A stretch of 64,000 nucleotides of DNA from Haloplanus sp. CK5-1 (GTDB lineage: Archaea > Halobacteriota > Halobacteria > Halobacteriales > Haloferacaceae): the NCBI RefSeq assembly GCF_037201915.1, contig NZ_CP147505.1, positions 2,232,001 to 2,296,000 of the forward strand. Reading direction: 5' to 3'. The notes beneath the pieces were generated by a model. That model did not search any database. It worked only from the letters and a program-made list of their open reading frames with translations, and had not been told where the DNA came from. The position numbers and the translations under genes are program-made. Positions 37,643-39,719 of this stretch are shown piece by piece. Within the stretch, counting starts at the first letter, position 1. Every line of letters starts with the position of its first letter.

Positions 37643-38179
37643 GTGGACCGCATCCACGTCAGCACGGTCGTCCGACTCCCGCCGCCGGAGGTGTACGAGT
37701 TCCTCGAGGACTTCCCACGGTACGCCCGCTACTCGGAGTACCTGACCGGCGTGACCGCCGACGGCGACGGCTCCCCGGGGACCCACTACCGCCTGCAGTT
37801 CGCGTGGTGGAAACTCACCTACACCGCCCACACGGAGGTGACCGACACCGACCCGCCGAGGCGACTCGACTGGCGCGTGACCGAGGACGTCGACGCCAGC
37901 GGCCGGTGGCGGATCGAACCGCTCGACTCCGATCCGTCGGCGCCGGCCGACGACGGCCCGGCCTGTCGTGTTCACCTCGAAGTCACGTTCGACGCCGACT
38001 CGGTCGGCGGCGGCATCGTCGACCTGCCGCGGTTCGTCTCGCTCGACTGGGTCGTCGACCGGGTGAAACCGATCCTCGTCGAGGAGGCAGAACGGGTCGT
38101 CGAGCGAATCGTCGCCGACGTTGAGGGGGAGCGCCGGGAGGTCGACCTCGTCGTCCACGAGGTTCCCGGTGACCTCTGA
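37643..38179 (+). CDS. SRPBCC (polyketide cyclase-like) family protein
   Basis: 178 residues from GTG 37643 (VDRIHVSTVVRLPPPEVYEF), which matches the usual start of this haloarchaeal family; a further GTG at 37586 would add 19 residues of no likeness. The fold is a SRPBCC/START helix-grip: PPPEVYEFLEDFPRYARYSEY, RLQFAWWKLTYTAHTEVTD, RLDWRVTEDVDASGRWRIEP, and a long C-terminal helix. Function is unknown; such proteins bind lipids or act in membrane stress. Confidence 0.77.
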   Translation: MDRIHVSTVVRLPPPEVYEFLEDFPRYARYSEYLTGVTADGDGSPGTHYRLQFAWWKLTYTAHTEVTDTDPPRRLDWRVTEDVDASGRWRIEPLDSDPSAPADDGPACRVHLEVTFDADSVGGGIVDLPRFVSLDWVVDRVKPILVEEAERVVERIVADVEGERREVDLVVHEVPGDL

Positions 38180-38287
38180 CCGGCGGTCGTGAGCCACGAC
38201 CCGCGGCGAACGGGCCGTGGTCGGGGATCATTATCAGCGGTGAAAGTCGGGGCCGTAACGTTATATCGCCGCGGTCCCCCTGTCACA

Positions 38288-38383
38288 GTGGGCTTTCCGA
38301 TCCGATGTCGGCACGGCGAGGATCCGCCGTACCGGCACGGCGTGGCTCCGGGGGGAACGCGCCGCCCGTCGGGTCGGAAGCCC
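38288..38383 (+). ncRNA. Candidate structured non-coding RNA (three-way junction)
   Basis: A TATA box GTTATATCG at 38259-38267 predicts a start near 38288. From there the sequence folds into a closed unit. The outer helix is GGGCTT-(T)-CCGATCCGA (38290-38305) against TCGGGTCGGAAGCCC (38369-38383), 15 pairs with one bulged U. Inside are a hairpin CGGCACGGCG / CGCCGTACCG with one mismatch (loop AGGATC) and a hairpin CGGCGTG / CGCGCCG. No good reading frame exists and both flanking genes end towards it. Class is unknown; I cannot match it to tRNA, 5S, SRP, RNase P or a C/D guide. Confidence 0.5.
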
Positions 38384-38441
38384 GCCGCGTATGACGACCC
38401 CTACCCTGTCCTCACCCCTCTCCGAACGGAACCCGACTTCG

Positions 38442-39719
38442 TCACGCCGACGACTCGACGGCGCTCGCGGCCCGGATGATCGTTCGCTCGCCGAAGGCCG
38501 GCCCGATCAACTGTAGCCCGACGGGGAGGCCGTCGGCCCGGCCCGCGGGAACGCTGATGGCGGGCAGGTTGGCGAGGTTCACCGGCACCGTGTTGGCGTC
38601 GGCGAGGTACATCTGGAGCGGGTCGTCGAGACTCTCGCCGAGTTCGAAGGGGAGGACCGGCATCGTCGGCGACGCCAAGACGTCGGCCTCGGAGAGCGCC
38701 TCGTCGAAGTCCTGCTTGACCCACGCACGGGCGTCCTGTGCCTTGGCGTAGTACTTGTCGTGGTAGCCGGCGGAGAGGGCGTACGTCCCGAGGAGGATGC
38801 GGCGCTTGACCTCGTCGCCGAACCCCTCCTCGCGGACGGCCGCGAACGACTCGTTCCAGTTGCCCTCGGCGTCGGTGTCGGGACCGTAGCGGACGCCGTC
38901 GAACCGGGCGAGGTTCGAGGAGGCCTCGGACATGGCGATGACGTAGTAGGCCTGCACGGCTCGCTCGACGGAGGGGAGGCTCACCTCGTGGGTCTCGGCG
39001 CCCTGGGCTTCGAGGTCGTCGAGGGTCTCGTGGAACCGGTCGACCACCCGCTCGTCGGCCCCCTCGATCAGTTCCGTCGGGACGCCGATCGAGAGGCCCT
39101 GAACGTCCCCGTCGGCGGCGTCGGCGTACTCCGCGTCGGCGCCCTCCTCGTGGGTCGTCGCGTCGCGGTCGTCGGGGCCGGCGATCACCTCGAGGACCTC
39201 GGCGGCCTCCTCGACCGTCGGGGCCAGCGGGCCGATCTGTTCGAGCGAGTTGGCGTAGGCGACCAACCCGTAGCGAGACACCAGCCCGTAGGTGGGCTTG
39301 ATGCCGACGACGCCACAGAACGCCGCCGGACAGCGGACCGATCCGCCGGTGTCGCTCCCGAGGGCGGCGTCGGCCTCGCCGGCGGCGACGGCCGCGGCAC
39401 TTCCCCCCGACGAACCACCGGGGACGCGGTCCCCGTCGACCGGGTTCGTCGTCGGCCCGAACGCCGACGTCTCCGTCGTCGTCCCCATGCCGAACTCGTC
39501 CATGTTCGTCTTGCCGACGAGCGTCGCACCGGCCGACTTGAGGCGTTCGACGACCGTCGCGTCGTACGGCGGAACGTAGTCGGCGAGCATCTCGGACCCG
39601 CAGGTCGTCCGGACCCCCTCGGTCGAGATGTTGTCCTTGACTGCGACCGTTCGGCCGGCGAGTGGCCCCTCGTCGGCTCCCGGAATCGTCTCCTCGGTGA
39701 TGAACGCGTCGTGGCTCAT
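38442..39719 (-). CDS. gatA: Glutamyl-tRNA(Gln) amidotransferase subunit A
   Basis: 425 residues. The Ser-cisSer-Lys amidase triad is visible: K28 in TVAVKDNIS, the serines of VPGGSSGGSAAA (about 103-107), and S127 in GSDTGGSVRCPA. The protein releases ammonia from glutamine for transamidation of mischarged Glu-tRNA(Gln). It is shorter than many bacterial GatA (about 480). gatB is not in the window, as is common in haloarchaea where gatB is unlinked. Coupled with gatC by ATGA. Confidence 0.95.
   Translation of the reverse strand: MSHDAFITEETIPGADEGPLAGRTVAVKDNISTEGVRTTCGSEMLADYVPPYDATVVERLKSAGATLVGKTNMDEFGMGTTTETSAFGPTTNPVDGDRVPGGSSGGSAAAVAAGEADAALGSDTGGSVRCPAAFCGVVGIKPTYGLVSRYGLVAYANSLEQIGPLAPTVEEAAEVLEVIAGPDDRDATTHEEGADAEYADAADGDVQGLSIGVPTELIEGADERVVDRFHETLDDLEAQGAETHEVSLPSVERAVQAYYVIAMSEASSNLARFDGVRYGPDTDAEGNWNESFAAVREEGFGDEVKRRILLGTYALSAGYHDKYYAKAQDARAWVKQDFDEALSEADVLASPTMPVLPFELGESLDDPLQMYLADANTVPVNLANLPAISVPAGRADGLPVGLQLIGPAFGERTIIRAASAVESSA

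Follow-up and report, generated by a model that had tools for sequence, protein, structure and literature searches.

A structured small RNA of Haloplanus predicted to belong to the CsmR motility and cell-shape program

Results

A predicted small RNA gene between an SRPBCC-type gene and gatA

The window (the whole 64-kb stretch of DNA that was analyzed) comes from a closed Haloplanus genome of 3.24 Mb, and the locus described here lies between an SRPBCC-type gene and the convergent gatA (Table 1). A sequence-only reading had previously proposed that a TATA box at this site is followed by a folded block, closed by a 15-pair helix with a one-base bulge and enclosing two further hairpins. The TATA box was located at 38256-38266 (TAACGTTATAT); within this region TAACGTTAT is nearly invariant in 12 Haloplanus genomes, and about 22 bases separate the box from the folded stretch. 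Folding of positions 38288-38385 (+ strand) produced a three-way junction with a minimum free energy (MFE) of -66.6 kcal/mol, against an average of -48.4 +/- 3.6 kcal/mol for shuffled sequences (z = -5.03), and the native MFE was equaled by 0 of 200 shuffles. The closing helix (P1) was upheld together with its bulge at 38296; however, it comprises 18 pairs (38288-38306 with 38368-38385) rather than 15. The two hairpins proposed inside it are present as P2 and P3.

Table 1. Features of the predicted small RNA locus and its flanking genes (window coordinates).
Feature	Position	Strand	Basis or remark
SRPBCC-type gene (Pfam Polyketide_cyc2)	37643-38179	+	5' neighbor of the RNA locus
CsmR-type half-palindrome TATCA-GCGG-TGAAA	38232-38245	+	upstream of BRE/TATA; conserved in 12 genomes
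TATA box region TAACGTTATAT	38256-38266	+	read from sequence
Predicted small RNA of about 109 nt with inferred 5' and 3' ends	38288-38396	+	fold and covariance-model matches in 12/12 Haloplanus
P1, 5' strand (closing helix), bulge at 38296	38288-38306	+	fold, pair counts
P2 hairpin	38307-38336	+	5+6 pairs; fold
P3 hairpin, apical part CGYGGYUCCGGGGGGAACGCG near-invariant	38338-38364	+	7+3 pairs; alignment
G-rich apical stem-loop UCC-GGGG-GGA	38347-38356	+	invariant in 12 genomes
P1, 3' strand	38368-38385	+	fold, pair counts
3' tail, consensus UCGCGUGUGAC, here CGCGUAUGACG	38386-38396	+	conserved in 10/12 genomes; one base differs here
gatA (Amidase)	38442-39719	-	3' neighbor, convergent with the RNA

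Covariation supports the fold

Each of the 12 homologues, folded one by one, adopted the same three-way layout. Paired changes in relatives had been set beforehand as a test of the structure, and these were found. When the 12 sequences were placed in a model-based alignment, which was fitted to the structure and therefore favors it, standard pairs filled 96.4% of pair cells and two-sided changes occurred in 8 of the 30 consensus pairs (13 two-sided cells; 0 of 500 shuffles). Sliding the 3' partners by 1-3 columns caused pairing to fall from 96% to 28-49%, and five pairs were still changed on both sides in an unfitted MAFFT alignment. The + strand folded more stably than its complement in 11 of the 12 homologues, and G-U pairs are common. 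P2 varies in sequence among species, yet the hairpin is always there. P3 is paired in 100% of cells across the 12 genomes, UCCGGGGGGAACG is invariant, and conservation of sequence extends beyond the loop into the stem itself. Such conservation exceeds what pairing alone would need and points to recognition of P3 itself.

The RNA appears confined to Haloplanus and has no Rfam family

Related sequences were found by blastn in genomes of the same genus. A covariance model built from 11 Haloplanus sequences matched all 12 Haloplanus genomes (E 1e-12 to 1e-20), including G011, which had been left out of the model. An even sample across the order yielded matches in 6 of 392 genomes, all six of them Haloplanus. 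No convincing homologue was obtained from other genera (about 550 genomes searched), with the first pass scoring just 9-21 candidates per genome, a setting from which highly divergent relatives could escape. Matches in four Haloferacaceae genomes outside Haloplanus were rejected as weak (E 7e-4 to 0.1) and resembling coding DNA. Pattern matches in Halosimplex and bacteria cover the short core alone. The gatA flanks of 18 other genera held nothing above chance, and no homologue was present in viral contigs. As far as these searches reach, the RNA appears to be restricted to the genus, and no description of it was found in the literature under Haloplanus.

A search of the window against Rfam, riboswitch families included, returned no match at the gathering score; under permissive settings the RNA itself gave nothing at E up to 5 and five homologues nothing at E up to 2. 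This agrees with the initial view that the locus does not fit tRNA, 5S rRNA, SRP RNA, RNase P or box C/D RNA. A conserved ACA was also looked for, as expected of an H/ACA guide RNA, and the tail UCGCGUGUGAC was without one in the 12 sequences. The predicted RNA does show what is looked for in a haloarchaeal intergenic small RNA (sRNA), being short and non-coding with its own promoter and a conserved structure. Covariation, the conserved promoter and the lack of an Rfam family together bear out the proposal of an unassigned structured RNA with a promoter of its own, and we consider it almost certain that the locus encodes a structured sRNA.

The gene is not tied to its neighbors

The usual gene order is coaBC - SRPBCC - trkA - trkH - (PhoX-like gene) - RNA - gatA, with losses, where trkA and trkH were named by eye from translations. 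The RNA lies beside gatA in 10 genomes, in which the convergent gatA ends 45-300 nt away, and in the two others (G007 and G011) trkH intervenes and places the two about 2.4 kb apart; the RNA, as the constant part of this neighborhood, is on this ground taken to be an independent gene and not an appendage of gatA. The gene 5' of the RNA also differs between genomes. Placement between the SRPBCC-type gene and gatA, as originally described, thus holds in the window but is not a general property of the locus. Inspection for a cis-antisense arrangement (of the type of Haloferax volcanii hvo_1211s) found the RNA to be intergenic, with no overlap with an opposed coding gene. Directly 5' of the RNA, seven genomes encode a small conserved protein marked by the motif ASYYGxKPERxxRYxNRVxKRA (upstream of position 7414 in L103, with equivalents in L104, L106, L107, L111, L112 and L113).

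The promoter carries a CsmR-type element

Alignment of the 12 upstream regions identified TATCA-N4-TGAGAAYYC directly 5' of the TATA box, most of the regions carrying TATCA-N4-TGAGAA. The element is absent from the sequence-only reading and was recognized here from sequence, ahead of the literature search. It matches TATCA(N4)TGATA, the half-palindrome reported as the ChIP-seq motif of CsmR in Haloferax volcanii, where it adjoins the TATA box of archaellum and chemotaxis genes (PMC13286277). The site in the window has one departure from the palindrome, and its downstream half is shorter by one base.

A genus-wide search for the element returned 9-29 sites per genome, compared with 2-9 for the reversed pattern. 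Many of these are grouped, in each genome, in a single region of about 30 kb, where they precede genes for CheW, CheY, archaellin, ArlCE and other motility proteins (Pfam and NCBIfam identities). A 39-bp matrix, trained on 16 archaellum/chemotaxis promoters of two genomes only (G009 and G007) and covering the element plus TATA at the fixed spacing shared with motility genes, was then scanned across the 12 RNA loci (about 30,000 positions each), the 64-kb window and further loci. In 11 of the 12 loci the best-scoring of the roughly 30,000 positions was the RNA promoter, which came second in the remaining one. With TATA left out, the CsmR part alone still placed it among the top three in every locus, and none of 200 column-permuted matrices put it first in more than 2 of the 12. 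Within the window the RNA promoter scored 29.8 and the next site 7.2. The distance from the start of the scored motif to the start of P1 was a constant 57-58 nt in 12 of 12 loci, which substantiates the earlier suggestion that the coincidence of helix start and predicted transcription start is beyond chance. Overall, these comparisons make it very probable that the RNA promoter belongs to the CsmR-type promoter set.

Elsewhere in the window, a short, very A+T-rich island in this G+C-rich genome (17915-17963) gave a low-scoring chance match to the matrix. A CsmR-like promoter also lies about 200-320 nt 5' of the PhoX-like phosphatase gene neighboring the RNA in seven Haloplanus genomes (L103:3142, L104:3405, L107:12164, L111:5967, L112:11814 and L113:11645, with a weaker site at L106:4833). 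The stretch between this site and the start codon is partly conserved and not clearly structured; a second RNA upstream of PhoX was considered and found unconvincing (fold z between -0.6 and -2.1). Phosphate regulation, suspected from the PhoX-like neighbor, was dropped when sites for the motif proved to lie in the chemotaxis cluster.

The RNA persists where the archaellum, and in one case csmR, has been lost

In 11 of the 12 genomes, archaellin and a KaiC-like gene are accompanied by a gene for a 111-aa winged-helix protein, the setting described for csmR; its assignment as csmR in Haloplanus was made by size, fold class and neighborhood. The window's genome has no csmR orthologue, only a 35%-identical paralogue. 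Both this genome and G008 are without ArlJ and without the CheW genes of the cluster; G008 keeps csmR and the KaiC-like gene. Despite the loss of csmR and archaellum, the window's genome has kept the RNA, its fold intact and its promoter still good. The loss may be recent; alternatively, the sites may be read by a different regulator, or the RNA may serve a branch of the program outside the archaellum.

In G008 the csmR/KaiC-like genes and the response regulator that border the cluster in relatives are still there, but the archaellum/chemotaxis genes between them appear to be cleanly gone (L211, 1605000-1624000), making this strain a natural archaellum-less Haloplanus that retains csmR. At least three more strong CsmR-type sites survive around the former cluster in the window's genome (about 1.36-1.39 Mb; L181:5755 on the - strand, L182:3112 and 8413 on the + strand).

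Discussion

Taken together, the locus is best read as a gene in its own right, encoding a structured small regulatory RNA of Haloplanus that is non-coding and acts in trans. The CsmR-type site of its promoter is spaced as in archaellum and chemotaxis genes, so the RNA is probably expressed along with the motility/cell-shape program, with CsmR acting at the RNA promoter. The long P1 and the variable P2 would serve as a stable scaffold on which the invariant P3 displays its G-rich loop, and P3, possibly along with the 3' tail, would contact C-rich mRNAs or a protein and thereby tune motility, surface or shape genes at the post-transcriptional level. From the sequence comparisons we infer that the RNA is transcribed, that CsmR binds at its promoter and that the RNA works through P3. 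A regulatory sRNA of the CsmR program acting in trans through the P3 hairpin is, as a whole, the likely interpretation; for the trans-acting regulation through P3 taken by itself, we put the chances at about even.

Searches for targets bear directly on this last point. A genome-wide search for perfect 11-base complements of the P3 loop retrieved 40 sites and no conserved target site, with only two genome pairs sharing a site, and a duplex scan at the ends of 22 cluster genes gave nothing after correction (p = 0.026 for the strongest of 44 tests, before correction). The RNA may instead be a protein-binding scaffold or decoy that has no base-pairing target and, for example, titrates a regulator or forms a ribonucleoprotein via P3. 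These empty searches would be expected of it, as would the sequence conservation of the P3 stem and not just of the loop, and retention of the RNA in two species without an archaellum fits a role beyond the tuning of archaellum mRNAs. However, seed pairing over 6-8 bases would escape the searches made, and we regard a scaffold or decoy as a rather unlikely, if serious, alternative to a trans-acting regulatory RNA.

Somewhat less likely still is that the RNA is genuine and conserved but that its element is a CsmR-like site of a different regulator, which would make the link to motility accidental. Occurrence of the element in the window's genome, which is without a csmR orthologue, would fit this, as would the similar sites preceding the PhoX-like gene and others. 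The Haloplanus sites nevertheless concentrate in the archaellum/chemotaxis cluster, csmR is present in all but one of the genomes, and both the TATA spacing and the sequence agree with the ChIP-defined motif as reported for Haloferax (PMC13286277).

A cis element of the neighboring genes, whether an antisense RNA or a 3'-end or terminator structure of gatA, is improbable. It draws on the convergence of gatA on the RNA at short distance in ten genomes, but is contradicted by the two genomes in which trkH separates them, by other haloarchaeal genera that carry gatA without such a structure, and by the promoter and G-U pairs, which put the function on the + strand. Leaderless mRNAs are in use among haloarchaea, and many homologues have a GTG or ATG where the RNA is predicted to start, yet a short protein-coding gene can be dismissed: from one species to another the invariant P3 is read in different frames, the lengths (105 to 117 nt) do not keep the frame, and G001 and G011 contain in-frame stops.

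If a regulatory RNA of the CsmR program is the correct reading, its having outlived the archaellum in two species would place its job outside the archaellum itself. It is quite possible, though somewhat less likely than not, that with this Haloplanus-only family a structured small RNA has for the first time been found built directly into the CsmR program, with a job in its shape, surface or signaling branch. Although many small RNAs are known in archaea, to our knowledge those that combine a conserved fold with a clear gene boundary and an identified regulator are few. The Haloplanus RNA offers a fold backed by covariation, a promoter in a named program and natural motility-loss species for comparison, and with these it becomes testable whether archaea, like bacteria, make small RNAs part of the circuitry by which a cell chooses between swimming and other states.

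Among known systems, the closest in promoter layout is the CsmR regulon of Haloferax volcanii, in which CsmR is described as a regulator of archaellum, chemotaxis and cell shape and TATCA(N4)TGATA likewise stands just 5' of BRE/TATA; the archaellum and chemotaxis genes of Haloplanus are marked by the same type of element (PMC13286277). That study infers activation by CsmR from the position of its site, yet the targets rise in the deletion strain, and no small RNA is named as a CsmR target in the parts of it drawn on here (PMC13286277). The regulon is described in Haloferax, whereas the RNA is known from Haloplanus. As reported in the same article, hvo_1211s of H. volcanii is likewise a regulatory RNA of the archaellum/cell-shape network, but is about 420 nt long, antisense to cirA and linked to RosR (PMC13286277), whereas the Haloplanus RNA, of about 109 nt, is intergenic, strongly folded and away from cirA. 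sRNA63 of H. volcanii is also a haloarchaeal intergenic, motility-linked RNA, and deleting it increases swarming and the levels of flagellin and chemotaxis transcripts; it is confined to H. volcanii and is likened to the Haloplanus RNA here by description (PMC3956466). sRNA132 of Haloferax shares the intergenic site, own promoter, similar length (138 nt), restriction to one genus and stable neighborhood; it differs in regulating phosphate transport, and no CsmR-type promoter is reported for it in the parts of that article drawn on here (PMC6560208). Set beside these motility-linked or genus-restricted haloarchaeal sRNAs, the Haloplanus RNA is a new family of a known kind, and what is novel is a conserved structured RNA carrying a CsmR-type promoter.
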